From a virus, in the IMG/VR virus record IMGVR_UViG_3300032323_001252, positions 1 through 60,961 of that record: a DNA stretch of 60,961 bases; one strand, given 5' to 3'. Below, in pieces: positions 34,371 to 60,961 of this stretch. Every line of letters begins with the position of its first letter. Positions within the stretch are counted from its first letter, which is position 1. The notes under the pieces are model-generated. The model did no database searches. It was not told the DNA's origin and was given only the letters and a program-made list of their open reading frames with translations. A program made the position numbers and the translations under genes.

Positions 34371-34401
34371 TAACAATTTTAAAATTTACTTGTTAATTGA
34401 G

Positions 34402-34435: not shown

Positions 34436-34456
34436 AAATTTAAACAACAAAAACAT

Positions 34457-40576: not shown

Positions 40577-40863
40577 TGGCAGATTTCAAACTATTACGCG
40601 GTAACAGATTGTTACTAGACCTTCCTAAGAAAGAAGAAGGTAAACTTATTGTGGACGAGAACACAAAAGAAGCTCTTGAGAAAGAGATGATGCAGAAGCT
40701 AAACAAGCTTACAGTGTATTCTGTAGGTGATCTTGTTACAGACATTAAAGCAGGTGATGAGATCCTAGTAGATCCAGCAGCGTTAAGTAAATCTCCTGTG
40801 ATTCCTATCGGTGGAGAGAACAAGTTATTGGTATCACCATTTGACGTTATTCTTGTTTGGTAA
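40576..40863 (+). CDS. GroES-like co-chaperonin
   Basis: 95 residues, the size of GroES. The sequence follows the GroES beta-barrel pattern: LLRGNRLLLDLPKKEEGKLI, a variable segment at the mobile-loop position, LTVYSVGDLVTDIKAGDEIL (GroES: VG...VKVGD), and the end NKLLVSPFDVILVW (GroES: E-D-I-L-A-I-V). Phage co-chaperonins such as T4 gp31 replace GroES on host GroEL for capsid folding. No GroEL gene is seen, as expected. Confidence 0.65.
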   Translation: MADFKLLRGNRLLLDLPKKEEGKLIVDENTKEALEKEMMQKLNKLTVYSVGDLVTDIKAGDEILVDPAALSKSPVIPIGGENKLLVSPFDVILVW

Positions 40864-42136: not shown

Positions 42137-42140
42137 CATC

Positions 42141-42947
42141 ATGAATATACTCTTACTTACTTCTTGTAATAGAATTAAACAAACTCTATTATCTCTATCA
42201 CTAAATGCCCAGACTATTAAAGGGCCCTTTAGTATAGTTATTGTAGACAACTCTACGCCTGGTGTAGAAGCTAATCAAGCATGTGAACGCCATCAGGGAG
42301 AAGATCCTTATAATGTTGTAAAACCTCACAACTATTGTTCTGATATATCATTACTTTATGATATGGAACAATACTTACCTAATAATGTTGAGCAATATAA
42401 AGTGATTCACACTTCTCCAAGACTAGTTAAGCAACGTGGAGAGTCTACTTCTGTTGCTATGGGGCTTATGCAAGCAGCACTGATGGGAGAAAGACACTAC
42501 GGTAGAGAAAACTACTGTTTGAAAATAACAGGAACGTCTATTCTTAAATATGATCTACTTAGTGAAATGCCTAGTAGATTAGAAAATGCAGGAGTGGTGA
42601 CATGGCATAGAGCTAATATTGGTGGATATGAACGTTCAACTCGTGTATTTGGATGTAGACCAGATGAACTAGTTCCTCACATTGCTAAAGAAGGATGGAG
42701 TGCTTGGTGTGATGACACTAGTGGTATATTTGAACAACGCTTTGCTAGAATGATCATTAGAACATTAGGCGAAGAAAGAGTTAACTATACAAAAGATGAT
42801 GAAAACGGGTTGTTATTAGAAGGCGGTATGGCTATGCAAGATAGTTATGCAAGACAAAGAATAACTCAGTTCATAGAAGAAAACGGTATAGATGTAAATG
42901 CTACACCATATTTAAGAGAATTTACAGAAGGTAAAATTTGGCCATGA
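42141..42947 (+). CDS. Glycosyltransferase-like protein
   Basis: 268 residues. NILLLTSCNRIKQTLLSLSL ... SIVIVDNSTPG has the N-terminal strand-turn of GT-A glycosyltransferases, with a Cys-Asn-Arg start. A clear DXD is not visible in the expected place; TWHRANIGGYERSTRVFGCR and WSAWCDDTSG may form the site. It could be a glycosyltransferase of divergent type. It lies between two clear cassette members. Confidence 0.6.
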   Translation: MNILLLTSCNRIKQTLLSLSLNAQTIKGPFSIVIVDNSTPGVEANQACERHQGEDPYNVVKPHNYCSDISLLYDMEQYLPNNVEQYKVIHTSPRLVKQRGESTSVAMGLMQAALMGERHYGRENYCLKITGTSILKYDLLSEMPSRLENAGVVTWHRANIGGYERSTRVFGCRPDELVPHIAKEGWSAWCDDTSGIFEQRFARMIIRTLGEERVNYTKDDENGLLLEGGMAMQDSYARQRITQFIEENGIDVNATPYLREFTEGKIWP

Positions 42948-43738
42948 AAGTTATAACTGCAAGTTACGGACCTTTGGATGTTACAGATGTAATTAATGAA
43001 AATTACATTAACGATGGTGCTATTTCATTTTCTGTAAGTAACGATGTCTTTGGAGATTCTATGCCAGGAGGCGTAAAAGAATTAAAGATTTCTATAGAAG
43101 ATGAAGGTGTAATAAACAACTACGTATATAAAGAAGGTGAGCTGTTTATATATCCTATATCTGAAGAAGAAGAAACTCGTAAAAAGTTTCTTAGAACTAT
43201 TGATAGAAGAGACCTATTACAATTGTATAACATCAAAGGTTTAGGTATAGAAGTTGGTGTACAGTCAGGACAATTCTCAAAAGATATTCTTAATAGAACT
43301 ACAGACTTTCATCTAATAGCTTTAGATTCTTGGAGAAACATTCCAGAAGGTTATGAAGAAGGAGGTAATACAGAAATGGAAGTTCACATAAAAAACCTCA
43401 TTAATACACTACGTATATTAAGTGAAGATTATGAAGGTAGATTTACAATTATGCGAGAGCTATGTGAAACAGCTTGTCACTTCTTTAAAGATGAGTTATT
43501 TGATTTCATATATTTAGATGCTAATCACTCTGAAGTTTTTGTAACTGAAGAACTAAAACGATGGTATCCTAAACTTAAGCCAGGAGGATTGATTGCGGGA
43601 CACGATTATGTAACTAGACCAAATAATACTGCGTTCGGAGTGAAAGATGCAGTAGATAAATTTTTTAAAGAAAAAAACCTAAAGTTTGAGGTGTGTGATT
43701 TTGGTTGCTGCCCAACTTGGTTTCATATAAAACAATAA
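42944..43738 (+). CDS. Methyltransferase with N-terminal beta domain
   Basis: 264 residues from the ATG at 42944 (ATGA overlap). Residues about 1-75 (MKVITASYGPLDVTDVINEN ... GELFIYP) form a small beta domain like DUF3395, often attached to sugar-modifying enzymes. Residues about 85-264 are a Methyltransf_24 domain: GIEVGVQSGQFS, LIALDSW, FDFIYLDANHSEVFVTEEL, GGLIAGHDY. It probably methylates a sugar made by this cassette. Confidence 0.75.
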   Translation: MKVITASYGPLDVTDVINENYINDGAISFSVSNDVFGDSMPGGVKELKISIEDEGVINNYVYKEGELFIYPISEEEETRKKFLRTIDRRDLLQLYNIKGLGIEVGVQSGQFSKDILNRTTDFHLIALDSWRNIPEGYEEGGNTEMEVHIKNLINTLRILSEDYEGRFTIMRELCETACHFFKDELFDFIYLDANHSEVFVTEELKRWYPKLKPGGLIAGHDYVTRPNNTAFGVKDAVDKFFKEKNLKFEVCDFGCCPTWFHIKQ

Positions 43739-43744
43739 ACCAAC

Positions 43745-44533
43745 ATGAAAAAAGTAAGCTTTGTATGTACATCATACAGAAGATTCTATTGTGTAAGAAG
43801 AATTCTTTCACAGTTTTACGCACAGACATATCCTAACATTGAATTAATACTATTCAATACAGATATGGAATATCCATTTGAGTTAGCAAATCCTGATACT
43901 AATATTGTTGTAGTGAATAACGCAACTGATTATCTTACAGGTGAACCATACAAGAATAGAGGACAAATCTGTAGAGATGCGGTTACGCACGCCACAGGTG
44001 ACTATTTCATGTTAGCAGATGATGATGATGTGTATTTACCATGGCATATACAGCAAGCTGTAGAAGGTATAGAAGAATGTGGAAGAGATGCTTGGAAACC
44101 AGAAAGAAGTTTCTTTGCTGCTCCAGGAAAGGTAGAGCTAAGTATGAATACTATGGAAGCTTCTGTTATTGTAAAGATGGAAAGAATCCGTGAGATTGGA
44201 TTCCGTAGTGATCTTACAGGATTTGAAGGGCTTAGTTGGTATATGCAACTTCGTGATGAGAAAGAGTTAGATGAACATACTCCAGGTTATTTACCATCGT
44301 ATTGTTTTAATTGGGATGATCCAGCAGAAATATCAGGACATAAGCAATCAGGAGATATCAACAACCCTGAAAACTTTGAGAATCACAAGAAAGCATCTGG
44401 AGACTATGCTAAAGGTCCAATAGAAACTGTTAGTTATAATGAACTATATAATTTCTATAAACCATATTACGACTTTATTAGTAACAATCCAGAACAGATT
44501 AATCAAGAGTATAAAGAACGTTACTTTAAGTAA
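43745..44533 (+). CDS. Family 2-type glycosyltransferase
   Basis: 262 residues. KVSFVCTSYRRFYCVRRILS ... YPNIELILFNTD is the GT-A nucleotide-binding start. NRGQICRDAVTHATGDYFML leads into ADDDDVYLP, the metal-binding acidic motif (about 92-100). It is the last plus-strand gene, followed by the bidirectional terminator. With its neighbours it may build a modified sugar on capsid, fibre, DNA or the host surface. Confidence 0.8.
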   Translation: MKKVSFVCTSYRRFYCVRRILSQFYAQTYPNIELILFNTDMEYPFELANPDTNIVVVNNATDYLTGEPYKNRGQICRDAVTHATGDYFMLADDDDVYLPWHIQQAVEGIEECGRDAWKPERSFFAAPGKVELSMNTMEASVIVKMERIREIGFRSDLTGFEGLSWYMQLRDEKELDEHTPGYLPSYCFNWDDPAEISGHKQSGDINNPENFENHKKASGDYAKGPIETVSYNELYNFYKPYYDFISNNPEQINQEYKERYFK

Positions 44534-44757: not shown

Positions 44758-45120
44758 TTACTTGCAGCCATATTTGCATTTCTTCATAGAACCACCCTTC
44801 TTCATCATAGCAGGAGCAGAAGTTACAGTTGCACCCATTTGAGCTTTCTTAACAGAAGCACCTTTCTTAGCAATTACACCACGACCTTTTAAGATATCGG
44901 CCTTAGTTACCTTACCATCTTTATTAAGATCAGGGAATGAACCACCAGACTTAGCTTTAGGCTTAGGAGCAGGTTTTTTAGTTTTATCTATAGAAGGACC
45001 TGAACCTGGACCATCGCCAAACTTCTTGTAGTTATCTAGTTCTTTCTTTTTTGCAGCACCTTTGAGCTTACTGAAAGCACCAATTTCGCCACCCATTTGC
45101 ATTTTTTTCTTAATAGCCAT
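44758..45120 (-). CDS. Lysine-rich mini-protein 2 with calcium-loop motif
   Basis: 120 residues. Basic segments with repeated K-M/A-Q-M-GG and MKKGGSMKK strings flank SFPDLNKDGKVTKADILKGR, which matches a single EF-hand or dockerin-type calcium loop (D-x-N-x-D-G-x-x-T-x-x-D). The end KKCKYGCK has two Cys. It may be a capsid- or DNA-associated peptide with a metal-dependent docking element. Confidence 0.65.
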   Translation of the reverse strand: MAIKKKMQMGGEIGAFSKLKGAAKKKELDNYKKFGDGPGSGPSIDKTKKPAPKPKAKSGGSFPDLNKDGKVTKADILKGRGVIAKKGASVKKAQMGATVTSAPAMMKKGGSMKKCKYGCK

Positions 45121-45122
45121 GA

Positions 45123-45311
45123 TTATTTCTTTTTAGACATTTTAGTTGCACCTAATTGTTTGTCTTTCTTCAAGACAGCTTTACCCTTAGCACCTGCTAA
45201 AGTTTTCTCTTGTACCTTAGTGTAAGCACCTTTAGGATCTACAGGTCCTACACGTTTTGTAGAAGCTTTTAATCCTGAAAGACTGCCGCCTGATTGCATT
45301 TTCTTTTTCAT
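45123..45311 (-). CDS. Lysine-rich mini-protein 3
   Basis: 62 residues starting MKKKMQSGGSLSGLKASTKR. The opening K-K-M-Q-x-GG recurs in the other members. The remainder is Lys/Gly/Ala-rich and probably disordered. Two-base gaps to both neighbours show tight packing. Confidence 0.6.
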   Translation of the reverse strand: MKKKMQSGGSLSGLKASTKRVGPVDPKGAYTKVQEKTLAGAKGKAVLKKDKQLGATKMSKKK

Positions 45312-45313
45312 TA

Positions 45314-45874
45314 TTATTTCTTTTTAGTTTGAGCCTTAATCTTTTTCTCCTGCTTTAACATAGCAGCTGTAGGTTTCTTACCAGAACCCTTATTTGCACG
45401 GATGTTATCCCATAAGCCACGCTTAGAGTATGAACCATCAGCACGTTTAATCATACCACCCATCTTTTTCTTAGAACCAGCTGATGTACTATCTGCTTTG
45501 AGTTTTGGTGCATAAACATTAACATTTTCCATCACTCTAGTTGGTGGTGTTCTAAGATCATTCTTATTAAGAGCATTTTTAGGATCTGCTTCTGCAATCT
45601 TTTTAAGAGCAATTCCTCCTTGAGCTTTTTTCATCATACCACCCATTTTGTTTTTAGGTAGTAATGTTGATTCATCAGTAGATTGTGCAGATTGTCTTTT
45701 TATTCTTTGTTGATTTAATTCATATCTACTTACAGTAGATTTTGGCATTGGATTAACAGTAGGTCTTTGTCCAGCAAATCTTTGTGCAGCAGGAGATTTA
45801 CCACCAGGTTTGAGAGGTCGTACAGCATTCACTGAAGAACCATCTTGAGCTTTCTTTAATATTTTTTTTGCCAT
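45314..45874 (-). CDS. Lysine-rich protein 4 with terminal conserved block
   Basis: 186 residues. It opens MAKKILKKAQDGSSVN. Two internal KMGGM(M/I)K repeats occur (KNKMGGMMKKAQGGIALKKI and KKKMGGMIKRADGSYSKRG). The C-terminal YSKRGLWDNIRANKGSGKKP plus TAAMLKQEKKIKAQ is a block I have met in other phages' basic virion proteins. Function unproven. Confidence 0.65.
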   Translation of the reverse strand: MAKKILKKAQDGSSVNAVRPLKPGGKSPAAQRFAGQRPTVNPMPKSTVSRYELNQQRIKRQSAQSTDESTLLPKNKMGGMMKKAQGGIALKKIAEADPKNALNKNDLRTPPTRVMENVNVYAPKLKADSTSAGSKKKMGGMIKRADGSYSKRGLWDNIRANKGSGKKPTAAMLKQEKKIKAQTKKK

Positions 45875-45885
45875 AATATATTATG

Positions 45886-46158
45886 TTAACAGTTCCACTT
45901 TCTTAATGCTAATGCTTTCCTTGTAGGTTTACCATTAGGTTTCTTCATAGGTCCTTGTACACCAGACATTCTAGCACAGAAAGACTTACGTCTGTTAGCA
46001 GCTTTACTTCCTTTCTTCAACTTAGAAGGAGGAGTAGTAACAGCCATCTTTAATTTACTACCAGGATTCTCACGTCTATAAGACGCTACACCTTTTCTAT
46101 TCAGTCCACCTTTAGGATCTTTTCCTTCGGACCTTTGCCATGCTGCGGTCTTTGCCAT
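45886..46158 (-). CDS. DUF6321-like basic protein 5
   Basis: 90 residues. AWQRSEGKDPKGGLNRKGVA, then SYRRENPGSKLK, then SFCARMSGVQGPMK and PTRKALALRKWNC match the conserved pattern of DUF6321, a short family widespread in phages, usually near head genes. The pattern and basic charge suggest nucleic-acid binding. The start overlaps the previous gene by 47 bases. Confidence 0.7.
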   Translation of the reverse strand: MAKTAAWQRSEGKDPKGGLNRKGVASYRRENPGSKLKMAVTTPPSKLKKGSKAANRRKSFCARMSGVQGPMKKPNGKPTRKALALRKWNC

Positions 46159-46381
46159 AATCAGGATTGTCTTTGTGCCACTTCTTTACAGATGCAACAC
46201 CTTGTTTAACAGTTTTAGCTTTAGATTTGTTAGTGAGATTAATCTTATCCCACTTACCAGCAGGGATACCAGCTGTATGATCTACAACGATGTCTCCCTT
46301 ATCGCCTATGCCCTTATCAGTTTTCTTTTTGAAAACTTTATGTGTTTGACCACCAGCCTTAACAATAGCTTTATTTGCCAT
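46112..46381 (-). CDS. Lysine-rich protein 6, paralogous to protein 7
   Basis: 89 residues. The part WDKINLTNKSKAKTVKQGVA followed by SVKKWHKDNPDYGK is clearly related to the C-terminus of the next upstream gene product (TIKQGVAATEKWHKDNPDY). It ends in a very basic tail (KVRRKRS). The two probably arose by duplication. Confidence 0.65.
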   Translation of the reverse strand: MANKAIVKAGGQTHKVFKKKTDKGIGDKGDIVVDHTAGIPAGKWDKINLTNKSKAKTVKQGVASVKKWHKDNPDYGKDRSMAKVRRKRS

Positions 46382-46794
46382 TACTTTTTCTTGCGTTTAT
46401 ACTTATAATCAGGGTTATCTTTATGCCACTTCTCAGTAGCAGCTACACCTTGTTTTATAGTTTTAGCTCCTACTTTCTTTGTAAGATCTATAGTATCCCA
46501 TACACCATTATAAGTAGTAGGATAATTTACCATAATATTACCTGGCTTACCCTCACCTCTCTTAGTACTCTTCTTATAAATGACATATTTCTTACCACCA
46601 GTAGCAGTACCTTTAACTTTCTTAGCTACCTTACCACCACTCTTTAATGTAGATCCCTTGAACTCTCCTTTCTTCTTGATTAGAGGTCCGTTAGGAACAG
46701 GAGTGATGTTTCCTCCTTGCTTAAGAACACCTTTACCTACATAGGCAGAAGCCTTCTGTGGATTGTATGGACCAGGTTTTCTTATAGAAGCCAT
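46381..46794 (-). CDS. Lysine-rich protein 7
   Basis: 137 residues. The N-terminal 70 residues are Gly/Lys/Pro-rich. The C-terminal 65 form the folded-looking domain shared with protein 6 (WDTIDLTKKVGAKTIKQGVA, KWHKDNPDY), ending in KYKRKKK. It overlaps both neighbours by one base (TAATG). Confidence 0.65.
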   Translation of the reverse strand: MASIRKPGPYNPQKASAYVGKGVLKQGGNITPVPNGPLIKKKGEFKGSTLKSGGKVAKKVKGTATGGKKYVIYKKSTKRGEGKPGNIMVNYPTTYNGVWDTIDLTKKVGAKTIKQGVAATEKWHKDNPDYKYKRKKK

Positions 46795-47159
46795 TATTTC
46801 TTTTTCTTAATTGCTACTTTAGTTACCTTCTTAGCTACTACTTTACCTCCTGCTTTCATTTTAGTTTTTCCACCATTTCTCCATGGAGTAGGTGTTCCTG
46901 TCATAGGAGCTGATAATGCTTTTTCTTTAGATAAATATTCTTTATCATTTAACATCTTACGAATTGTTGCAGAATGTTCCTTAAGCTTAGCTTGATTAAT
47001 ACCTTTAGGAGTAAATGTAGAATCAATAATTTGATTTCTACGAGTAGGCTCATAAAATTGACCAGAAGGATTCCATCTTTCTTTAGATTTTGATGGAGCT
47101 TCCATCATTCCATTTTGAGCTTTCTTTACAGGAACTTTCTTTAATACTTTCTTTGCCAT
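46794..47159 (-). CDS. Lysine-rich protein 8
   Basis: 121 residues opening MAKKVLKKVPVKKAQNGMME, with the same KKAQ(N/D)G string as proteins 2 and 4. The central part is mixed and helical (INQAKLKEHSATIRKMLNDK). The end is GKTKMKAGGKVVAKKVTKVA plus Lys run. It probably belongs to the same functional set. Confidence 0.65.
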   Translation of the reverse strand: MAKKVLKKVPVKKAQNGMMEAPSKSKERWNPSGQFYEPTRRNQIIDSTFTPKGINQAKLKEHSATIRKMLNDKEYLSKEKALSAPMTGTPTPWRNGGKTKMKAGGKVVAKKVTKVAIKKKK

Positions 47160-47344: not shown

Positions 47345-47977
47345 CTATAATATCTTTATAGGTGTATTATTCTTTCTACTACCAGAAAGTTTCTCATGTA
47401 ACTTTTTATAACTTGTGTTTTTCTCACAGTCTGTAATAGACTCATATATAATATTAGTTTGAGTATCTATTACTCTCTTACTTATAGGAGTAGATTTACC
47501 AAACCAAGCATTCTTACAACCTGTAGAAGTCAATCTTAGTTTTTCTCTAGTTTGTTCAGAAGGCGATTTACCTTTCTTAGAATCACTCATTTTTCTTATT
47601 GTTTCTTCTGAGTGTTTCTTTCCAAACATGTGAGCTTTTTCTCCCTTCTGTCTTTCAGATAACTTTAGTATATACTCTTGCGATCTTTTTATACCAGGAG
47701 TACCTTCCCCACCGTTAGTCATATTAACTAAGCTTCCTGTACCTAGATCTTTTCTTCCATATAGCAAAATGAATTCCATCTCCTTTTCACAAGCCTCTTC
47801 CCAAGTTAAGTCATCTAATAAAATTTCTACCCTATAAGGTATTTTATTAGTAATATTCTTCCAATAAATACTTCTGTTAGCTTTTATATTAGATCTTTTA
47901 TAAGTTTCATCATTACCAATTCCTATATAGAATGGTTCGTTCTTATCTAATCTAATATGTCTGTATAGGTAAGCCAC
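47345..47977 (-). CDS. GIY-YIG homing endonuclease
   Basis: 210 residues. It starts with GTG immediately after the previous stop codon. The GIY-YIG core is degenerate: AYLYRHIRLDKNEPFYIGIG (2-21), with Arg in the next helix (YKRSN) and catalytic Glu in EKEMEFILLYG (about 65). NUMOD3-type repeats (HSEETIRKMSDSKKGKSPSE) and a C-terminal NUMOD1-type region follow. It sits inside the late operon between two structural-region genes. Confidence 0.85.
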   Translation of the reverse strand: MAYLYRHIRLDKNEPFYIGIGNDETYKRSNIKANRSIYWKNITNKIPYRVEILLDDLTWEEACEKEMEFILLYGRKDLGTGSLVNMTNGGEGTPGIKRSQEYILKLSERQKGEKAHMFGKKHSEETIRKMSDSKKGKSPSEQTREKLRLTSTGCKNAWFGKSTPISKRVIDTQTNIIYESITDCEKNTSYKKLHEKLSGSRKNNTPIKIL

Positions 47978-49201: not shown

Positions 49202-49855
49202 TTAAATTATTGTTGATGCATTACCTACTAAGTTACAATTAGTAATTGTTACTGCAGTACCACCTAAATTACAATTAGTAATTTCTGTAACATTGCCTCC
49301 TAAATTACAAGCACTGATTGACGTTGCAATGCCTGCTAACGCACAAGGAGAAATAGTGGTAGTAGTAGTTGTAGTAGGTGCTATTGTTGTGGTAGTACTA
49401 GTCGTAGGTAATCCAGTTGTAGTTGTCGTTGTTGTTGATGCTACCACCATTGTAGTGGTCGTAGTGGTTGATCCTACTATTGTAGTAGTTGTAGTTGTTG
49501 TACTACTACTACTAGTGGTTGTAGTGGTACTGATAGGAATAGTGGTTGTAGTAGTAGTTGTAGGAACATACGGCCTGTATGTTGCATTAATCTCTAACCA
49601 ATACGTACCAGAATCAGCATCTGATGGAGCACCTGATAGTAATAACAAACTACTAGGAACAACTCTACCGTATGCATCAAGTCTAACAAAAGCTCTTAAT
49701 GAATTAGAGGTGAGTACACTATTGCCGATAGCTTTGCTTACGGGTTGCCAATTGCCAACCTTTGGTCTATAAGGACTAATGATAGGACCCCCAGGAACAA
49801 TACGTCCCTGAGAGTTATATCTTACATAAGCTATATTACCGTTTCTTCCTAGCAT
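49202..49855 (-). CDS. Fibre-like protein with poly-threonine stalk
   Basis: 217 residues. Two copies of a small module (AYVRYNSQGRIVPGGPIISP and AFVRLDAYGRVVPSSLLLLS) are followed by a Thr-dominated stalk (about 97-165, runs of five to seven Thr). A C-terminal tip has repeats of ITNCNLGGxA type. The module recurs in the next two genes. It looks like a virion decoration or tail-fibre component. The stalk is coded by imperfect triplet repeats prone to length change. Confidence 0.65.
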   Translation of the reverse strand: MLGRNGNIAYVRYNSQGRIVPGGPIISPYRPKVGNWQPVSKAIGNSVLTSNSLRAFVRLDAYGRVVPSSLLLLSGAPSDADSGTYWLEINATYRPYVPTTTTTTTIPISTTTTTSSSSTTTTTTTIVGSTTTTTTMVVASTTTTTTTGLPTTSTTTTIAPTTTTTTTISPCALAGIATSISACNLGGNVTEITNCNLGGTAVTITNCNLVGNASTII

Positions 49856-49857
49856 TA

Positions 49858-50076
49858 TTATGCCACTGTTGTGGTAGTAGTTGTAGTAGAAGGAGCAATT
49901 GTTGTAGTTGATGTCGTAGTAGTATTAGCATTAGTTCCTCTATAATATGTAGGAATTTCTCTCCATGTACCTGATTTAGGTTTCGAGGCTCTGAAGACAG
50001 GTGTTCCTGATACTACACGACCTGTAGAATCAATTTGAACAAATGCTTTTAATTTTGGGGTTGCGTTATTTGCCAT
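49858..50076 (-). CDS. Short fibre-module protein ending in poly-threonine
   Basis: 72 residues: the module KLKAFVQIDSTGRVVSGTPV ... GTWREIPTYY, then a Thr-rich end (TTTTTTTVA) with no tip domain. It may be a shortened relative of the next protein, cut within its repeat, or a complete small decoration protein. Two-base spacing to both neighbours. Confidence 0.6.
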   Translation of the reverse strand: MANNATPKLKAFVQIDSTGRVVSGTPVFRASKPKSGTWREIPTYYRGTNANTTTTSTTTIAPSTTTTTTTVA

Positions 50077-50515: not shown

Positions 50516-51538
50516 TTAATAAGTTAAATTGTATTTTTCTTTAAGTTCAAGAAGTCTACTTACATAATAATGTGTACCAAGCAATTTGCTCTTCTCATTG
50601 TTATATACGTATTCTAAATGCGAGTCAGTGAAAGGATCTATACCATTGTGGTATTTACCTTTATAGAATGTAGGGATGTCACCCATAGTGTCTCCTACCA
50701 TTCCAGCATTATGAAAGATCCCAAGTCTGTGTACTTTTTCTATCTGATCAGAAGCCCAAGCAAATTCCATTTCTGGAACAACTTTAGTTTCATCACCTCT
50801 ACGCCATAGATTCCATAGAACAGCCCACATATCTGCACACCAACTTTGAAAACCTCTATCCTCACTTTCAAAGAACTCTCTATTAACTTCCATTAAGAAC
50901 AAGCGAATAGAAATACAATCACTCATTACATGTTCCCAGAACTCTGCATCAATGTTCTTTAATAGATATTGAGCCCCTCCTGAATGTAAATTGTAATGCT
51001 CTGCAATTTCTCTATTAACATTACAAATAGCTGTAGTTTCTTGTAGAATATCACGTTCTTTGTATGCTTCTAGCTTGTGTGGTAGAACATCTCTATCCTT
51101 ACTATCAAAGTAACTAGCATTGATATAGCTGTTAGTATCTGATAAGTAATGTACATCATCGTTTATGTACTGATCAATGTTGAACTTGTCTGTAAATACT
51201 ACATCACAATCACAATACAGTAATGTTTTTTCTTTCATCTCAGGATGATCCTGGAAGTAACGCATCAATGTGTACGGACGTAGCACAGAAATATAGATTC
51301 CTAATAACGAGCTAACTCTGTTCTCATCATCCTTATAGAAAGCAAACTCTGCTTCTGGATATAAGTCAACAAGTTTTTGCCATTTGTCATTAGGCTCTCT
51401 GAAGTTTGGACAAAACACTAATATAATTGCTTTGTCTGAATGTCCAAGCTTTCTCAAGCTCTCTAGCCATAAATGCACTTGCCATGTAAAATATACATCG
51501 TCAGGTTGGGCACACACGAATTTTAGTTCTTTGTTCAT
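50516..51538 (-). CDS. Glycosyltransferase in the fibre region
   Basis: 340 residues. KELKFVCAQPDDVYFTWQVH, a central LLYCDCDVVFTDKFN with a DxD-type metal site (about 109-123), and later NLHSGGAQYLLKN. It has a GT-A-like layout of nucleotide-sugar transferases. Sitting among fibre genes it may decorate fibres. An endonuclease gene is inserted exactly at its start, and the leader plus first codons occur on both sides of that insertion. Confidence 0.7.
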   Translation of the reverse strand: MNKELKFVCAQPDDVYFTWQVHLWLESLRKLGHSDKAIILVFCPNFREPNDKWQKLVDLYPEAEFAFYKDDENRVSSLLGIYISVLRPYTLMRYFQDHPEMKEKTLLYCDCDVVFTDKFNIDQYINDDVHYLSDTNSYINASYFDSKDRDVLPHKLEAYKERDILQETTAICNVNREIAEHYNLHSGGAQYLLKNIDAEFWEHVMSDCISIRLFLMEVNREFFESEDRGFQSWCADMWAVLWNLWRRGDETKVVPEMEFAWASDQIEKVHRLGIFHNAGMVGDTMGDIPTFYKGKYHNGIDPFTDSHLEYVYNNEKSKLLGTHYYVSRLLELKEKYNLTY

Positions 51539-51552
51539 ATAGTAGTTGGTTT
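51535..51552 (-). repeat. Direct repeat at the GT start (inner copy)
   Basis: On the minus strand AAACCAACTACTATATGA: the leader and ATGA of the glycosyltransferase gene, also forming the last codons and stop of the endonuclease. It corresponds to the copy at 52125-52143. Confidence 0.6.
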
Positions 51553-52128
51553 AAGTCTATCATCTCTTTTAATAATTGGTGTTGTATTAGATTTCCAAGA
51601 TATGCCATAAATAATTTGTCTAGCTGAAGCTAAACTTATATTCATGATTTTAGAAACTTCTATAATACTTTTACCAGAGTTGTATAGTTGTTTTAGTAAA
51701 GTTACATCTTTATCTGTAATTTTTGCTTTACTATTCTTTTCACCAGCTCTACTAGGTTGTAATCCTAATTCGTAAGCATGTTTTTGATTCTCAGAATTAT
51801 TCATCCATTCTAAGTTATCTGAAACATTGTTAAACTTGTTACCATCTTTGTGATTAACTTGTGGTAAACTGTTTGGATTATCTATAAAAGCTTTAGCAAC
51901 TAATCTGTGAACTACTCTTGGTAAAGAAGATGATTGTGTAAAAAGTCTTACTTCTAAATAACCTCTTCTATTAATGTAAGGTTTAAGTATTTTACTTTTA
52001 ACAATGCCTCTTCTTTTACCAGCAATTCTATCAATGCTTCTGACAGAGCCAAGACTACTTACTTCATACGAAGTTTCATATCCTGGACAAGGTCTCCACA
52101 TCTCACAGATAAATTTAAGATCCCTCAT
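51535..52128 (-). CDS. NUMOD4-HNH homing endonuclease at the glycosyltransferase start
   Basis: 197 residues. MWRPCPGYETSYEVSSLGSV (from residue 10) is a NUMOD4 domain. The HNH core is VVHRLVAKAFIDNPNSLPQV-NHKDGNKFNNVSDNLEWMN (about 70-109). The C-terminal helix-turn-helix (KITDKDVTLLKQLYNSGKSI) binds DNA. The first nine residues MRDLKFICE do not belong to NUMOD4 but mirror the start of the glycosyltransferase (MNKELKFVCA). Its stop overlaps the glycosyltransferase ATG. Confidence 0.9.
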   Translation of the reverse strand: MRDLKFICEMWRPCPGYETSYEVSSLGSVRSIDRIAGKRRGIVKSKILKPYINRRGYLEVRLFTQSSSLPRVVHRLVAKAFIDNPNSLPQVNHKDGNKFNNVSDNLEWMNNSENQKHAYELGLQPSRAGEKNSKAKITDKDVTLLKQLYNSGKSIIEVSKIMNISLASARQIIYGISWKSNTTPIIKRDDRLKPTTI

Positions 52129-54194: not shown

Positions 54195-55529
54195 TTAATA
54201 TATTTTATTCAATACGAACGTGTCGCTGTATATATTGTTTCCTGTACTAGCAGATCCCCATTGAATTGTTACATCTAATGTATTACCGATTGTTGTATTG
54301 AATGTTGTGTTATTCACTACATTAAATCCAAATCCTTGAACAGAAGCGTTGTTAGTCTTTGTGTAATGAAATGATCCTAATGACACAATAGATGCTACAC
54401 CAGCAGTTCCAAGTTGTCTAATTGTAAAATCAACATTCAAAGACCATACATCATTTGTAACAGCACTTCCAAGATTTTGAATACCGCTATCTAAAAGAAT
54501 AACAGATCCTGTTTTTAATTTAATTCTAATAGTTTGATTATTATTAGCATTCATAAGACCTCCTAGAATTGCTCTAAAAGAATCACCAACAGCAAATCCA
54601 TTAGCAGGTACACTCAATGTACCAACTCCTGCACCAATGATAGTTGTTTCTGCAGTGGTGTTAGTAACAGTAGCACTATTAGCTGTTTGAGCATATAAAC
54701 CAGGTGTGCCTGCTGGTCCTTGTGCACCTGTATCTCCTTTAGGACCAACTTCTCCCTGAATACCTTGTATACCCTGAATACCCTGAATTCCTTGAATACC
54801 CTGAGCACCAGTGTTACCTGTATCACCTTTAGGTCCTTGTGGACCTGGATCTCCTTGTGGTCCTTTTATATCACCAGCATCAAACCATGCTGTTCCATTC
54901 CAAGTCATTAAAGAACCATCAGATAATAAAATCCAAGAATCTCCTATGTTAGCACCAGGTTGAGAACCTGCACCAGCTTCAAACGCAGCTAAATCAGCAT
55001 AAGATCCAAGAAGAGTTACAGAATTACCTGCACTTCCTTGAGCTCCTGTCTCACCTTGTATACCTTGAGGACCTATATCTCCTTGATCACCTTTAACCCC
55101 TTGGATACCTTGAATACCTTGTTCTCCTTGAACACCTTGTATTCCCTGGATTCCTTGTACTCCTTGAGGTCCTTGTAGATCGCCTACATCTTCCCAAGCA
55201 TTAGTTACTGTATTCCAAACATATAAAGAACCATCAGACTCAATTATCCATGCTGTACCAGGCTCACCAGGATCTCCACCAGCACCTGCTTGAAATGCAG
55301 CTAAGTCAGGATAAGATCCTAACACTGTTAAAGCAGCACCTGTTTCTCCTTGAGGACCTTGTATACCCTGTACTCCTTGGATTCCTTGTGGACCTTGTAC
55401 ACCCTGTGGGCCTGGAGGACCTACTAATCCTTCACTTTGAATTAGTTCATCTAGGTTTAACCAACCCTTATACCCATTACAATCTCTGCAAGATTTTTCC
55501 CAGAAGCCTGTCTTTATAAACGTAGGCAT
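54195..55529 (-). CDS. Collagen-like tail fibre protein
   Basis: 444 residues. An N-terminal Cys-containing part (FWEKSCRDCNGYKGWLNLDE, about 7-26) is followed by Gly-X-Y collagen repeats in several blocks (about 37-65, 122-165, 225-272; GPQGIQGVQGIQGPQGETG type). These are broken by two related domains with LGSYPDLAAFQAGAG / LGSYADLAAFEAGAG. A beta-rich C-terminal head (about 290-444) follows. Trimeric fibre with a receptor-binding or folding head is likely. Confidence 0.85.
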   Translation of the reverse strand: MPTFIKTGFWEKSCRDCNGYKGWLNLDELIQSEGLVGPPGPQGVQGPQGIQGVQGIQGPQGETGAALTVLGSYPDLAAFQAGAGGDPGEPGTAWIIESDGSLYVWNTVTNAWEDVGDLQGPQGVQGIQGIQGVQGEQGIQGIQGVKGDQGDIGPQGIQGETGAQGSAGNSVTLLGSYADLAAFEAGAGSQPGANIGDSWILLSDGSLMTWNGTAWFDAGDIKGPQGDPGPQGPKGDTGNTGAQGIQGIQGIQGIQGIQGEVGPKGDTGAQGPAGTPGLYAQTANSATVTNTTAETTIIGAGVGTLSVPANGFAVGDSFRAILGGLMNANNNQTIRIKLKTGSVILLDSGIQNLGSAVTNDVWSLNVDFTIRQLGTAGVASIVSLGSFHYTKTNNASVQGFGFNVVNNTTFNTTIGNTLDVTIQWGSASTGNNIYSDTFVLNKIY

Positions 55530-55638
55530 GATAAATTTTTGTTAAATATTACAAATATATATTAGTTAAAACAATATACAATAGATTGTTACAAATTGAC
55601 AATAACCAAATTAGTTACATCAACTCTAATTAAATCGA

Positions 55639-56856
55639 TTAGAGATTGATCTTTGTACCTATCATTCCAAAATATGTTGGAGGAACTATAGGATTTGTAT
55701 TCAATGATGTCTTTAAAGCAAAGTTGAACTTGAATCTTTTAGTCAAAGCTATATCAAATGATGCTCCTGTTAGTATCCCTACATCATTAGATGTAATAAA
55801 CTTTTGTTGTGCTGTGAGATAACCAGTGGATGATCCAGACAAATAGATGTCAGGAGAGATGGTTAGTTTCTTATTGATTGGTACAGGGACAGTGTAGAAT
55901 AGTAGAATGTTGTTGGATAGATTCATTCCTTTGTCTGCACCAGCTACACTAAATGTATAGTTAACACCTGTAGTTCCCCACTTACCAAACGGGAATATAC
56001 TAGCAGCTGTGACAAAACCTAATGTTGTACCAGCTAGATACACTCCTGTAATACCAAAGTTAGATATGTTATCTAGTTTACCATCATTGAAATTCATGAT
56101 AGTGTATCTACCAGATACAGCAAACTGATTCAGTGTGCTCCATATCATTGAGCTTAATCCCCAAGATGTGTTCCCCATAAGAGAACTTTGAGACATTCCT
56201 AACGAAGCAATAACACTAAGCTGGCTATCATTTGCAGGAGCGACAGTAAAATCAGAACTATAAATGATGGGATTAATACGTGCCTGAGATTTACCAGAGC
56301 CCTTAGACTCCTTCTTTGACTCAGACTTAGATTCTGATTTCTCTTCCTTACTTTCGCTTTTACTTTCACTACTGGACTCACTTTTGGTTTCTGTTTTGGT
56401 TTCTGATGATGAACTACTACTGCTACTAGATCCACTGGCTGCTGGAGCAGGTGTACTAGCTACAGGAGGAGGGCTACTAACAGCAGCAGAGGTAGCAGCA
56501 CTTGCTGCTGCAGCTGTGGCAGAACTAGTAGCTTGTGCTGTAGCTTGACTTGTAGCAGTGGCTACAGCTTGTTGTACAGCATTAGCAATGGTTTGTTGCA
56601 CAGCTAACGTAGCTTGTGGACATGGAAAGTTGATTGTTAAATCATTTATCCACGCCTGAAGAGCTCCTGTAGTTATATCATTTGCTGTTACAACTCTGAA
56701 TCTTCCTCTATAGACAACTGTAGTTTTACCATTAGCTATTGGAACAGTGACCGTTGTCACACTTCCTGAACAGGGATCAACAAATACCTGTGTTAATACC
56801 TGACCTTTAACACCAAAGAATGTCAGTATTAGTATTAATAGCCATATCCATTTCAC
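55639..56856 (-). CDS. Exported beta-barrel-like protein with Ser/Lys/Glu linker
   Basis: 405 residues. An N-terminal signal peptide (MKWIWLLILILTFFGVKGQV) precedes an Ala/Ser/Thr-rich helix and a Ser/Glu/Lys low-complexity linker (about 145-192). Residues about 200-405 consist of amphipathic strands ending in YFGMIGTKINL, as in outer-membrane beta-barrels. Export and outer-membrane insertion are inferred. It overlaps the CsgG-like gene by one base and belongs to the same module. Such a protein is unusual for a phage. Confidence 0.6.
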   Translation of the reverse strand: MKWIWLLILILTFFGVKGQVLTQVFVDPCSGSVTTVTVPIANGKTTVVYRGRFRVVTANDITTGALQAWINDLTINFPCPQATLAVQQTIANAVQQAVATATSQATAQATSSATAAAASAATSAAVSSPPPVASTPAPAASGSSSSSSSSSETKTETKSESSSESKSESKEEKSESKSESKKESKGSGKSQARINPIIYSSDFTVAPANDSQLSVIASLGMSQSSLMGNTSWGLSSMIWSTLNQFAVSGRYTIMNFNDGKLDNISNFGITGVYLAGTTLGFVTAASIFPFGKWGTTGVNYTFSVAGADKGMNLSNNILLFYTVPVPINKKLTISPDIYLSGSSTGYLTAQQKFITSNDVGILTGASFDIALTKRFKFNFALKTSLNTNPIVPPTYFGMIGTKINL

Positions 56857-57578
56857 TACTTGAATAGATTCTTTTTAATCATTCTTACAATAATCTTAGC
56901 ACTAGCTGTTTCAAGTGCTTTCTTAGTCGTTGTACCAATCGTGGATTGGTTAAACTTAATATCAGTAAAGTTAGCATCGTTCATTAGTGTTGCTTCTCTT
57001 GTTGTCTTAGCTTCACCAAGTCCTGATCCTGTAAACAATGTACCAGTCTCAGCATCAACAAACTTAACTTGCATACCTAGTCTTGTGACTACAATCTGCT
57101 TAACACCATCTTTCATAGAGATGGATTCATCTTCTGATACAGAGAAGTCATATACCTCAATGTAAACAAAGTAGCGAGCTAATCTAATTTTGCCCCTACC
57201 ATCTAGCTTATCTTCTGTAATGCCTTTCTGACTAGCCTGAAACTGTTTCACCATACGGTTTTTAATCTCAGCTTTGTCCTCAGTAAATAGGAATCTGTTT
57301 GTCTCTTCTAGGAATTCAATCACTATGTTAGTAACACCAAGACCCACTCTTTTGTCTTTGAGTTCTGGATAAGCAGCATAGAGCTCTTCGTTAATACCAA
57401 GAGATAGCAATTGGATAGGGATTTTGGGACCATCGTAATCCATTAAAGAGTCAATGTTAATCTTCTTCTCAAAAGATGCCTGATAGGCTTCCGTTTTTAC
57501 TGTAGCACTTTGAGCACTAACCTTGAACGTTAGTAATGAGCTCAATAATAAAACGAATAATAAGCTTAACTTCTTCAT
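56856..57578 (-). CDS. CsgG-family exported protein
   Basis: 240 residues. Signal peptide MKKLSLLFVLLLSSLLTFKV SAQ (cleavage near residue 23, no lipobox Cys). The mature part has IVIEFLEETNRFLF, VTRLGMQVKFVDAETGTLFT, GSGLGEAKTTREATL and FNQSTIGTTTKKALETASAK. This follows the CsgG/LpoB fold signature (A-x-T-G-E ... G-x-G-x-A/S ... S-x-I-G-x-A-T-x-x-A). CsgG forms outer-membrane secretion pores for curli. Whether this copy forms a pore is unknown. Confidence 0.6.
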   Translation of the reverse strand: MKKLSLLFVLLLSSLLTFKVSAQSATVKTEAYQASFEKKINIDSLMDYDGPKIPIQLLSLGINEELYAAYPELKDKRVGLGVTNIVIEFLEETNRFLFTEDKAEIKNRMVKQFQASQKGITEDKLDGRGKIRLARYFVYIEVYDFSVSEDESISMKDGVKQIVVTRLGMQVKFVDAETGTLFTGSGLGEAKTTREATLMNDANFTDIKFNQSTIGTTTKKALETASAKIIVRMIKKNLFK

Positions 57579-57606
57579 ATAGTTTTCTCATTAAGAGGGG
57601 GTTTCG

Positions 57607-57912
57607 TTACCACTGTGGCTCGTCTTTCAAAGCCTCTTTTTCTGTTTTCTTAGCAGGTGCAGCTGGCTTAGCAGCTTCCTTCTCCTTGATGATAACAGTT
57701 TTGCCACCAGCAGATTGTTGTTGCTGTTGTGCATTTGAGTTAGTGATGTTGATCACTGGAGCAGGTGCTGTAACTGCTGCTGGTGTAGCTGCTGCTTCTT
57801 CTTCACCTGTTAATTGTTTAGTCACAAAACCACCTACACCTAGTGCGATAGTACTTGCTAGTCCGATAAGGATGCTCTTTAATGAGCCTCCACCTTCTTG
57901 TTCTTCTGCCAT
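57607..57912 (-). CDS. Single-pass membrane protein (holin-like candidate)
   Basis: 101 residues. A short acidic start, one hydrophobic helix (about 12-31, SILIGLASTIALGVGGFVTK), then an Ala/Pro/Gln-rich disordered region with QQQQQ, and a Lys/Glu tail. The small size and single helix resemble some holins or connector proteins. In this operon it may link cytoplasmic and periplasmic parts. Not a firm call. Confidence 0.5.
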   Translation of the reverse strand: MAEEQEGGGSLKSILIGLASTIALGVGGFVTKQLTGEEEAAATPAAVTAPAPVINITNSNAQQQQQSAGGKTVIIKEKEAAKPAAPAKKTEKEALKDEPQW

Positions 57913-57913
57913 A

Positions 57914-58267
57914 TTAATTAAGGATTAAGGGTTTTTTAATAATAGTTCCTGAGATATCGATAAGATGTAAATCATACATACCTGTAGGTAATTCGTTTAA
58001 GTTAATAGTTTTAATTGTAGCTTCTGATTCAGCTGTAAATCCAACTGTCTTAACAGGTTCTGTTTTTCCAAATGTATACACTTGAAGTGAATACTTAGCT
58101 CCTGCTGTAGTGTTAGCTACTATTGTAGTAGATTTGTTAGATACAGTAATAGATGTAATGTCTGTGCCCTTTGCTGTAGCACCAAGATCAATTTCTCTCT
58201 CCAAGACTTCAATGTCTTGACAAGAAACTAATATCATTAAAAATATAAATACGATTGCGTGTCTCAT
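57914..58267 (-). CDS. Lipoprotein with beta-sandwich domain
   Basis: 117 residues from the ATG at 58267 (MRHAIVFIFLMILVSCQDIE). LVSC is a lipobox, and Cys 16 would be lipidated. The rest is beta-rich and ends LPTGMYDLHLIDISGTIIKK-PLILN, which looks like the C-terminal sorting domain pattern of type IX secretion cargo (G-x-Y ... G ... KK-x-x). Export to the outer membrane or surface is inferred. The start at 58297 lies inside the endonuclease gene and is rejected. Confidence 0.6.
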   Translation of the reverse strand: MRHAIVFIFLMILVSCQDIEVLEREIDLGATAKGTDITSITVSNKSTTIVANTTAGAKYSLQVYTFGKTEPVKTVGFTAESEATIKTINLNELPTGMYDLHLIDISGTIIKKPLILN

Positions 58268-58268
58268 G

Positions 58269-58868
58269 TTAGAAGTTGTTAAGTTTTTTATTTGCAAGTA
58301 AAGATTTCATATAGGTACTGTGGTTTTGTTTCCATTCCTCTGTTTTTCTATAATTTGCTTTAGGTCTTGGTTTACGCATTATTTCTATCCACTCTGCTGT
58401 CTTTTCTCTAGGAACCCTATCAGGATTACTTTTGCAACATTTCTGATGTATACTTAAGTTACCTTTTCCACCTAATTCTTTATTACAATATTCACAATTA
58501 AACTTAGGAGGCACAAATCCTTTATTTGCCTTAGACATATTATCAATCCAAGTCTGAGATCTTTTTGCCCCTTTTCGTAACAAGCTAAGTTTTTGCTTAA
58601 CTTCTTCAGTGTGATTTTTTAATCCACCACCACCTTCGTTTTTATTTAATACATTGTATCCCCAATGTCTAAACTGTTCTATCCAATATGATTCTAACGG
58701 TTTCCAATCTTTTTTATCTTCTGACTCTATTTCATCTATATAGTCAAAATTAATTTGAGATCCGAACTTTAATTTATGACCAGATTTTCTAGTTTTAATT
58801 GATGTCTTACCTACATAAACTGTATAAGGGTTATCATCAATGTTAGTAACTATATATATTTTTGCCAT
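58269..58868 (-). CDS. GIY-YIG homing endonuclease
   Basis: 199 residues. Core: IYIVTNIDDNPYTVYVGKTS (4-23), Arg in TRKSGHKL, catalytic Glu in PLESYWIEQF (about 57). NUMOD3-type helices (HTEEVKQKLSLLRKGAKRSQ) and a C2HC zinc finger (CEYCNKELGGKGNLSIHQKC) follow. It is inserted between two exported-protein genes, with gaps of one and two bases to the neighbours. Confidence 0.9.
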   Translation of the reverse strand: MAKIYIVTNIDDNPYTVYVGKTSIKTRKSGHKLKFGSQINFDYIDEIESEDKKDWKPLESYWIEQFRHWGYNVLNKNEGGGGLKNHTEEVKQKLSLLRKGAKRSQTWIDNMSKANKGFVPPKFNCEYCNKELGGKGNLSIHQKCCKSNPDRVPREKTAEWIEIMRKPRPKANYRKTEEWKQNHSTYMKSLLANKKLNNF

Positions 58869-58870
58869 AA

Positions 58871-60640
58871 TTAATTGAACATTGAATAGCCTGTTAACTT
58901 GATTGTGTCTGTAGATAAATTGATTCCTAGTTGATAACCTGTCTTAGAAGCAGCGTCCATTACTGGGCTCACTCTAATAGATGTATTAAGATCTAGAGGA
59001 TTACCTACAGAAGAGAAGCGTAACTTGAATGGTGTAAACTTACCTGTTACAGGGTTCTTTACATCTTTATCAATAGATCCAAACTTAACCTTGCCCTCTT
59101 TGTTATCTACGAATGTATACCATGTGTTAGGTAGATCATTGAAGATTTGCTCAAACTTGATCTTAGTAGGATCGTATGTAAACTCAAACTGCAGTGCTGC
59201 CACATTACCTGTGTTAGCATCTACCTCTACAGGAATATCAATTGTACTAGCTGTAGTAACAATGTTCTTTAAGTTTACATTAATAGAAGGAATGTTCTGT
59301 GTAGTGTTAATTAATAAGTGAGCTGTAGATGATGCTGCTAAGTTCTTTCTTAAACTAGGAACAGCATTTGTAGCTACAGAGTTACCAATCATCACTTGTG
59401 AACTGTGTGATCTATTAATGTCACCAGGGATAACAAAACGTAACTTCAATGGAAGATTCTCACCAATGTTTCCTGTCTTGAAGCGTACATAGTTGTTATT
59501 TAAGTTTTTCCAAGAACTAGATGTAGCTGCATTAAATGTAGCAACATCAAATGTAGGTACACTCATATACATATCTGTACCAGCAGTATAGTTTTGTGGT
59601 AATGTAACTAAGTTTTCTACGCCTGTTACTTGAGAGAACAGTCGGACTAAGTCACCACCATCAAATAGTTTATTCCTATTTACATCAGCAGCATAGTAAC
59701 CCATGCCTGTGATGATGTTCTGGTTTTTGAATGTACCATCTAAGTTCTGTGTAACAAACTCAGCTTGTGCTGTGGTGTAGTCAGAGACAGTAACAGCAGC
59801 AGAAGATAAGTCTTTCACTGAGTCCATGTTAAATAGAACACGAACATGATATACTCTATTAGGTTGGAATCTAGTTTGATCTACAGGTATTGTACCATCA
59901 GACAAAGCATCTACTAAGTATGTAGTGTTAGCTACAGAGTCTGTGAATGCCACACGATGTAATGAAAAAGCGTTTACATTAGCGTTTATATCTAATGTAG
60001 GGTTAACATATCTACTAGCTGTAGGATCTAGCATGATTACACTAGTTAAAGGTGTAGTCATGATTGTAGAACCATTGGTGCCATTCTGATTGAAGGCAGC
60101 AGCAAAGTTCATTCTAATTGGATCCCATGCAAATCCAGGAGCTGTAGGTCTTAGTCTGTATCTAAGATTAATAAGTTTACCTACCCCTAGCCCCCCTTGA
60201 TTAACTGACCAGTTTATATATACACGAAGGATCGATTTAGATCCTCCTTGTGTGTAGTTGTATGCACTGTTAAAATATCTAACAGTACCATCAGCAACAT
60301 TATTAGCTTGTGTAGATACCCAATTGTATCCAGGGTAATCTTGATGACTCAAACTAACCTGAGAATTTGCAGGAAGAACACTACCTACTGGAGTGTTAGT
60401 TACACCTAACAACTGTAGAGCTGTATTAGTGTATTCAAAATCAAAATATAAAGAACGAGTGGAAGTGTTTCCATTGCCATCAGCATGTATTTCTACATCT
60501 AATGTATCCCCTTTGTTAATAACAGATCCGCGTGTGTTTATGTTATTAGTGTCGTTAGGGAAGTAAAGTTTAACCGTTTGACCATACAAATGTCCAGTTA
60601 ATAAACAAATAAACTGGACAATCAATAAGAGTTTTTTCAT
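58871..60640 (-). CDS. Exported cohesin-like protein
   Basis: 589 residues. Signal peptide MKKLLLIVQFICLLTGHLYG Q. The N-terminal third is beta-rich (about 25-200). Residues about 310-335 hold YYAADVNRNKLFDGGDLVRL, a dockerin-type calcium loop. Residues about 450-589 resemble a cohesin domain (SINVNLKNI ... VDANTGNVAALQFEFTYDPT ... KVKFGSIDKD). A cohesin and a dockerin-like motif in one protein suggest self-assembly or docking on a surface. It overlaps the next gene by one base. Confidence 0.6.
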   Translation of the reverse strand: MKKLLLIVQFICLLTGHLYGQTVKLYFPNDTNNINTRGSVINKGDTLDVEIHADGNGNTSTRSLYFDFEYTNTALQLLGVTNTPVGSVLPANSQVSLSHQDYPGYNWVSTQANNVADGTVRYFNSAYNYTQGGSKSILRVYINWSVNQGGLGVGKLINLRYRLRPTAPGFAWDPIRMNFAAAFNQNGTNGSTIMTTPLTSVIMLDPTASRYVNPTLDINANVNAFSLHRVAFTDSVANTTYLVDALSDGTIPVDQTRFQPNRVYHVRVLFNMDSVKDLSSAAVTVSDYTTAQAEFVTQNLDGTFKNQNIITGMGYYAADVNRNKLFDGGDLVRLFSQVTGVENLVTLPQNYTAGTDMYMSVPTFDVATFNAATSSSWKNLNNNYVRFKTGNIGENLPLKLRFVIPGDINRSHSSQVMIGNSVATNAVPSLRKNLAASSTAHLLINTTQNIPSINVNLKNIVTTASTIDIPVEVDANTGNVAALQFEFTYDPTKIKFEQIFNDLPNTWYTFVDNKEGKVKFGSIDKDVKNPVTGKFTPFKLRFSSVGNPLDLNTSIRVSPVMDAASKTGYQLGINLSTDTIKLTGYSMFN

Positions 60641-60961
60641 TATAATAGTTTATTAATCAGAGAGTTACAAGACTTTTTGATTGCACTACTTAGGTTAGTT
60701 TGGTTAAATTTTCCACCTTCGTCAATGAGTAACGTAGACATAGACACTTCTTCTGCAGACTCTTCTACAATAGCAGTCTTAATCACCTTACCTTTATCTA
60801 ATAATTTACCTCTCATCCTAATCACCACAGCATCTGTGTTCTTGTGAAAGACTGATAGGTTTGATTGAGTTTTTAATACATCTAAGTATAAGATCTCCAC
60901 CTCTACAGTTTTAGTAGCATAGGGATTAAGTGTAAGATCTTTCTCTTCCACTATAAATTCC
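60640..60961 (-). CDS. CsgG/LPP20-like exported-module protein (partial)
   Basis: The frame is open to the window edge (107 codons), so the start is not seen; a GTG at 60951 is possible but the reading continues beyond it. It has EVEILYLDVLKTQSNLSVFH, AVVIRMRGKLLDKGKVIKTA and an end with EGGKFNQTNLSSAIKKSCNS. The last part recalls the CsgG-like protein encoded at 56856 (FNQSTIGTTTKKALETASAK). It may be a lipoprotein of a related fold, but without the N-terminus this is tentative. Confidence 0.45.
   Translation of the reverse strand, partial: EFIVEEKDLTLNPYATKTVEVEILYLDVLKTQSNLSVFHKNTDAVVIRMRGKLLDKGKVIKTAIVEESAEEVSMSTLLIDEGGKFNQTNLSSAIKKSCNSLINKLL

Follow-up and report, generated by a model that had tools for sequence, protein, structure and literature searches.

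Six genes for envelope-directed proteins, usually found near an endolysin gene in Bacteroidota phages, and their possible role at the end of infection

Why would a phage carry, beside its tail-fibre genes, a run of genes whose products are addressed to the envelope of its host? The question is raised by one end of a 60,961-nucleotide stretch of viral DNA (IMG/VR record IMGVR_UViG_3300032323_001252, positions 1 to 60,961; "the window"). A preliminary description, made from the letters alone, had noted that a signal peptide, a lipobox or a membrane helix marks five of seven non-nuclease genes in this region, and we confirm this for the genes called here COH, LIPO, TM1, CSGG and BARREL. The window ends within a further gene, YAJG; the full-length relatives of YAJG start with a signal- or anchor-type helix and, with YAJG counted in, six genes would bear envelope signals. 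These signals, called with a simple heuristic, recur over many distinct relatives and are therefore not due to chance.

As read from sequence or structure models, the six co-directional genes address every layer of the envelope: TM1 the inner membrane, CSGG and YAJG the periplasm, BARREL and LIPO the outer membrane, and COH the cell surface. To our knowledge, how Bacteroidota phages open the outer membrane and protect the infected cell is largely undescribed. The six-gene set is common to hundreds of otherwise unrelated phages and usually lies near an endolysin gene, which provides testable candidates.

Results

The gene set recurs in phages that differ otherwise

With CSGG as the query, 316 encoding stretches were found in IMG/VR, and with gp017 of the isolated phage immuto 113; the best 80 of each were kept. 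After clustering of neighbours, presence was counted in the 90 loci that have at least 8 kb on either side of CSGG. Within 8 kb of CSGG, COH occurs in all 90, YAJG and BARREL in 89 each, TM1 in 78, an endolysin gene in 72 and the holin-like gene HOL8 in 56, and the synteny of the module is seen in about 160 loci. A search for the same genes in other phages had been proposed as a check, and the set is indeed found both across IMG/VR loci and in immuto. The immuto protein gp017 is one CSGG relative among isolated Flavobacterium phages (57% identity), and the module genes of this phage are annotated merely as "hypothetical", "lectin" or "cohesin domain-containing". Because immuto is an isolated phage with a cultured host, Flavobacterium sp. 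LMO8, gene deletions and localisation of the products are feasible now.

Among 84,980 bacterial and archaeal genomes there were only two matches, both on contigs of metagenome-assembled genomes (MAGs) with phage-derived gene content: one contig is 12.6 kb long and belongs to a Flavobacterium MAG, the other, of 254 kb, to a Bacteroidetes MAG. A cellular origin was also sought in two draws of Bacteroidota genomes, one of 296 across the phylum and one of 200 within the genus, which yielded nothing beyond the known phage-like contig. Thus, the module is phage-specific. The 254-kb contig (CAIWBA010000291.1), although binned with a bacterium, is probably a large phage that bears the module.

When the window terminase was compared with 40 records, several of which are fragments, identity was 78-94% in three, about 30% in five and about 25% over short stretches in thirteen; in 19 it was undetected. 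The window COH is 70% identical to that of locus L012, whose terminase matches at 26% over a short stretch, and only 46% identical to that of L003, whose terminase is 94% identical. Since the identities of COH and terminase disagree in this way, the module moves as a unit between phages with unrelated terminases. The nearest relative, L001, has 96% identity in CSGG and 90% in terminase. Within the module, CSGG is conserved best (66-96% identity in the first set of relatives); COH, LIPO and BARREL fall to 25-40% among relatives.

A type IX sorting domain is fused to COH or possibly replaced by LIPO

COH (58871-60640, on the minus strand like all module genes) encodes a secreted protein with a signal peptide (..LTGHLYGQ). 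The preliminary description had called it cohesin-like, and it matches Pfam Cohesin (PF00963) at 27.1 bits against a curated cut-off of 24.1; it also has a dockerin-like calcium loop (DVNRNKLFDGGDL). A C-type lectin domain is present in related COH-cluster proteins of immuto (gp013) and of locus L044. Despite its signal peptide, the window COH has no type IX sorting domain (Pfam Por_Secre_tail, PF18962) at its end, whereas this domain is present in the COH orthologues of L050 and L080 and in immuto gp015.

A sorting-domain HMM was built from the few clear cases and run over the COH and LIPO loci. COH ends in a sorting domain in 93 loci, none of which has LIPO, while all 58 loci with a domain-less COH do have LIPO; three have neither. 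The window belongs to the branch with a domain-less COH and a separate LIPO. LIPO (57914-58267) encodes a predicted outer-membrane lipoprotein with a lipobox (LVSC-QDIEV) and a sorting-domain-like region. The HMM matches three LIPO proteins, best in L058 (E 1.3e-5) and weakly in the two others, and the window LIPO scores 19 bits against PF18962 (E 0.0018), below the 27-bit cut-off. Because of these matches and the mutual exclusivity with the COH domain, LIPO would most simply be a detached sorting domain on a lipid anchor. With its fused and free states, this domain offers a natural test of the requirements of type IX secretion.

The lipobox recurs in 42 of 43 LIPO relatives. After the lipidated cysteine, 36 of the 43 have an acidic residue at +3 and 31 have at least two within +2 to +6; many begin C-[SQ]-[DE]-x-E, and the window protein begins C-QDIEV. 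This acidic start resembles SDDFE, the export signal of surface lipoproteins in the Bacteroidota member F. johnsoniae (PMC5080379). COH is more likely to be exported via the host type IX system than by CSGG.

CSGG is related to CsgG in fold, not in sequence family, and YAJG may belong to the same superfamily

CSGG (56856-57578) has a signal peptide (..VSAQ) and the CsgG/PelC/FlgT fold. Its AlphaFold2 model (pLDDT 62) runs strand-helix-strand-helix-three long strands-helix, and the top Foldseek matches are CsgG structures (4uv2 and 6l7c, probability 1.00, TM about 0.45; E 2.8e-7 for 4uv2); FlgT, PelC, GNA1162 and LptE are matched as well. An alignment of 44 CSGG sequences has a mean column identity of 73%. 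Pfam CsgG (PF03783) has no match in the window genome scan or in the 44 homologues, and E. coli CsgG aligned with the CSGG profile at an hhalign probability of 0.6%, which is not significant. Sequence-profile searches of the PDB returned no match for CSGG and none meaningful for YAJG, and Pfam, PHROGs and NCBIfam searches with single window proteins gave nothing convincing for CSGG, TM1 or YAJG. The earlier label "CsgG-like" therefore holds for the fold and fails for the sequence family.

The preliminary description had also placed CSGG in an export machine, and this part is not supported. A lipidated cysteine, sought at the mature start, is absent from the window protein (the signal peptide ends ..SAQ). 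The 36-strand pore of CsgG is built from two amphipathic beta-hairpins. In a hand alignment, the first hairpin segment of CsgG (24 aa) corresponds to a shorter D/E/K-rich loop, and the second measures 29 aa, against 37 aa in E. coli CsgG, and is polar. Among the neighbours scanned with Pfam there was no CsgE, CsgF or CsgA/B partner. Lacking lipobox, membrane hairpins, Pfam match and partners, CSGG is not supported as a CsgG export pore; the structure prediction that had been suggested as a check returned the fold at superfamily level. We read CSGG as a periplasmic member of the CsgG superfamily that would form a ring or act as an adaptor.

Of YAJG, the window holds the last 106 codons (60640-60960), 90.6% identical to residues 76-181 of the L001 protein. 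The full-length product would be a secreted or membrane-anchored protein of ~150-180 aa in the YajG/CsgG superfamily. YajG/Lipoprotein_16 (PF03923) matches 18 of 34 relatives (best E 9.2e-5); TraT (PF05818) matches four of the 34 weakly (best 0.0018, below any firm threshold), and a heuristic check found no consistent lipobox among them. The resemblance of this partial gene to CSGG, claimed earlier, has moderate support from a profile match between the two (hhalign probability 64%).

BARREL and TM1 are predicted to sit in the two membranes

BARREL (55639-56856) has a GTG start, a signal peptide (..VKGQ), an N-terminal domain with two conserved cysteines, a long Ala/Ser/Lys/Glu linker and a C-terminal barrel. 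For the last 220 residues AlphaFold2, run on an alignment of the window and IMG/VR loci only, gives 12-13 strands at pLDDT 85.6, and Foldseek matches the model to FapF, OmpG, NanC and KdgM. We are confident that this domain is modelled as a 12-stranded outer-membrane barrel, its closure being read from the Foldseek matches, and the earlier description as barrel-like stands. FapF was rejected as a specific homologue, since OmpG, NanC and KdgM score alike. A PDB sequence-profile search with BARREL found nothing meaningful, the low-complexity linker yielding false matches, and weak Pfam DDHD and CIS_TMP matches were discarded because they lie in that linker. All 110 BARREL sequences have a DxC motif, and some 50 residues separate the two conserved cysteines.

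TM1 (57607-57912) has one N-terminal membrane helix and a low-complexity periplasmic tail. The N-terminal side of the helix is the richer in K/R in 70 of 95 distinct proteins, with 22 ties, and the topology is probably N-in/C-out. All 95 end in Trp (EEPKW type), likely a binding tail.

The module lies beside lysis genes

The minus-strand genes at 55639-60960 correspond to the downstream half of a cassette that is conserved among relatives; because the window stops inside YAJG, its own copies of the upstream lysis genes would lie beyond its end. In L001, the genes directly upstream of YAJG are c10 (small, one helix), HOL8 (two helices), c6coil (transmembrane plus periplasmic) and a PG_binding/GH19 endolysin (PHROG endolysin match, E 3e-65). 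HOL8 is holin-like by topology and position, and c6coil is a candidate for a spanin. Immuto-like phages have the module away from the fibre region, amid nucleotide-metabolism genes; HOL8 and endolysin stand beside YAJG in many loci, and the endolysin annotated in immuto lies several kb from the module.

When the loci are grouped by shared non-module genes, six of eight multi-locus groups have an endolysin gene. Random placement in a ~130-kb genome would give one nearby in about 13% of groups by our estimate. The endolysin linkage is therefore not due to chance.

The c6coil family (L001:5132-5737, L086:7890-8513) has an N-terminal helix, a periplasmic stretch and a beta-rich C-terminus, and stands between a holin-like gene and the endolysin in unrelated phages; it could be a unimolecular spanin of Bacteroidota phages. 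A relative in MW202828 lies between a holin-like open reading frame and an M15 endolysin, with no module gene within the stretch read. In several lineages a secreted DNA/RNA non-specific endonuclease (PF01223; L081:9935-10513, L043:9538-10152) is in or beside the module and might remove DNA during lysis or break down DNA that enters the cell. In one lineage a class 3 lipase (PF01764; L043:11577-12356), which suggests membrane attack, directly follows BARREL.

Discussion

What the module may do

The preliminary description had named outer-membrane lysis, display and exclusion as possible functions, and for a module that is real, conserved, envelope-targeted and linked to lysis these are the right candidates. 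Its products probably remodel the outer surface of the host or break it as infection ends. The reading that we tentatively prefer is that the module displays COH on the surface of the dying cell, timed to lysis, for receptor masking or exclusion. The six proteins would form one trans-envelope assembly produced late in infection. COH would leave by Sec and then through the type IX system of the host, relying on its own sorting domain or, in the branch of the window, on the separate LIPO in place of that domain. BARREL would anchor COH in the outer membrane and extend its two-cysteine arm into the periplasm, where CSGG and YAJG would form a ring or adaptor beneath the outer membrane, linked to the inner membrane by TM1. 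With its surface occupied or remodelled, the dying cell and its debris would neither adsorb rival phages nor trap progeny. We favour display because of the sorting domain, the lectin and cohesin domains, and the spanin candidate that is already present.

Several points weigh against display. Masking or exclusion would follow from predicted localisation only, and the surface address of LIPO is an argument from its motif. The confidence of the CSGG model is low. The fused and free states of the sorting domain require about 2-3 switches on the CSGG tree, and since that number suffices, independent swap events are few. Finally, the endolysin linkage fits a direct role in lysis equally well.

Such a role is the most serious alternative and a close rival, possible though on balance doubtful: the module would be the last step of lysis, a spanin-equivalent assembly that opens the outer membrane after the endolysin has cut the wall, with TM1 in the inner membrane, CSGG and YAJG in the periplasm, and LIPO and BARREL in the outer membrane. 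What favours it is the constancy of the endolysin link (72 of 90 loci, with HOL8 in 56) in contexts that range from tail fibres to nucleotide-metabolism genes; the topology of TM1 and LIPO matches an i-/o-spanin pair, and the lipase after BARREL would also fit. However, c6coil is already a spanin candidate, and its MW202828 relative has none of the module genes around it in the stretch read. No coiled coil is apparent in the TM1 or LIPO sequences, and breaking the outer membrane would not call for a cohesin protein of ~590 aa that bears a type IX sorting domain.

A third reading, which we consider unlikely, takes BARREL as the carrier of COH in the way that SprF carries SprB, hooked by its cysteines to GldK, the moving track; the phage would thereby hijack or jam type IX secretion and gliding. 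In F. johnsoniae, disulfide bonds through twin cysteines link SprF and PorG to GldK (PMC12635249), and here the sorting domain on COH and the two cysteines conserved in the periplasmic arm of all 110 BARREL sequences are suggestive. The BARREL cysteines, however, are not in a C-x-C arrangement and, at their wider spacing, may bond each other, and searches found no sequence link from BARREL to SprF/PorP.

There is a slim chance that some module proteins are built into the virion or decorate it: the module adjoins tail-fibre genes in the window and in many relatives, and the cohesin and lectin domains might attach to the surface of the host, but the signal peptides, the lipobox and the type IX sorting domain send proteins out of the cytoplasm, where virions are assembled, and immuto-like phages keep the module apart from their fibre genes. 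Least likely of all is the secretion of curli- or Fap-like fibres, an idea put forward for pelagimyophage CsgG/CsgF, for although that phage precedent exists, CsgG is the best structure match of CSGG and FapF is among the top matches of BARREL, no amyloid-repeat gene, CsgE or CsgF was recognised beside the module, CSGG has neither anchor nor pore hairpins, and the likeness to FapF is shared by generic 12-14-strand barrels.

It is conceivable, if less than probable, that the module represents a new class of machine: a trans-envelope complex in the lysis cassettes of hundreds of Bacteroidota phages, coupled to type IX secretion or gliding, that displays a cohesin protein with a sorting domain fused or free as a lipoprotein and thereby controls the end of infection, either by opening the outer membrane or by shutting out rival phages.

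Relation to known systems

Envelope proteins encoded beside lysis or tail genes are familiar from spanins and from lambda Bor/Lom-type outer-membrane genes. The module differs from these in that its conserved proteins number six, one of them a large surface protein, and in having no coiled-coil spanin pair inside it. The CsgG-superfamily rings and adaptors (CsgG, PelC, FlgT, GNA1162, LptE, YajG) share with CSGG the fold and the order of secondary structure, and 18 of 34 relatives of its neighbour match YajG; in contrast to them, CSGG is secreted without lipidation and has no detectable homology to the E. coli CsgG sequence.

Phage CsgG/CsgF have already been published for pelagimyophages and the OM43 phage Melnitz (PMC7029224, PMC9004378), and the Melnitz authors propose a role in lysis regulation (PMC9004378). 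Common to both cases is a phage CsgG-superfamily gene in a cluster of envelope genes. Those phages, of SAR11 and OM43 hosts, have a recognisable CsgG-CsgF pair, whereas here the Pfam CsgG match, lipid anchor, hairpins and CsgF are lacking, five other partners are conserved, and the hosts are Flavobacterium.

Phage-encoded type IX cargo is likewise known, from Cryophage, whose proteins bear the sorting domain and are presumed to use the host system (PMC7468147). There the cargo comprises variable enzymes and a PA14 protein; here a single cohesin protein, conserved and set in a fixed module, is the cargo, with the domain detached as a lipoprotein in one branch. In SprB-SprF (PMC12635249), too, a surface protein exported by type IX secretion is paired with an outer-membrane barrel that has conserved cysteines facing the periplasm, but no sequence relation emerged, the cysteine spacing is different, and the present module is phage-specific. 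TraT of conjugation surface exclusion (PMC11733297) is a lipidated decamer encoded on plasmids, and its likeness lies in the weak YAJG matches.

The preliminary description knew of no described phage system with this content. That holds for the set as a whole: the open-access papers searched describe neither the gene set nor its link to lysis, its breadth or the swap of the sorting domain. It does not hold for phage CsgG/CsgF and phage type IX cargo, which had been published.

Neighbouring genes and other observations in the window

In order of transcription on the minus strand the genes are YAJG, COH, a homing endonuclease gene, LIPO, TM1, CSGG and BARREL, followed by collagen-like and other tail fibres. 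The free-standing GIY-YIG/NUMOD3 homing endonuclease (58269-58868, minus strand), between COH and LIPO, is not a functional part of the module. The window and L001 are ~85% identical in DNA on either side of it, and it is absent from L001 at that junction; because window positions 58281 and 58886 join there at a single L001 base (9235), the endonuclease gene is an insertion. The first ten codons of the listed LIPO reading frame fall inside the end of the endonuclease gene, and the LIPO start was therefore moved from TTG 58297 to ATG 58267. By eye, more endonuclease-like genes lie at 23374-23979, 34397-35005, 37257-37808, 47345-47977 and 51535-52128.

The collagen-like tail fibre (54195-55529, minus strand; PHROG tail families, E 4e-46) adjoins the module and is not part of it. 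In fibre-region proteins at 49202-50076, long stretches of threonine (TTTTTTT) separate short head segments that are conserved. A minus-strand group of small, strongly basic Lys/Gly-rich proteins (44758-47159) comes right after a strand switch, ahead of which glycosyltransferase- and methyltransferase-like genes, recognised by eye, are grouped (40857-44533). The terminase large subunit (4345-6369) is nearest to that of Leptolyngbya phage Lbo-JY46 (39.6%), recorded from a cyanobacterium, and next to those of Cellulophaga phi4:1 and crAss-like phages, whereas the module points to Flavobacterium hosts.

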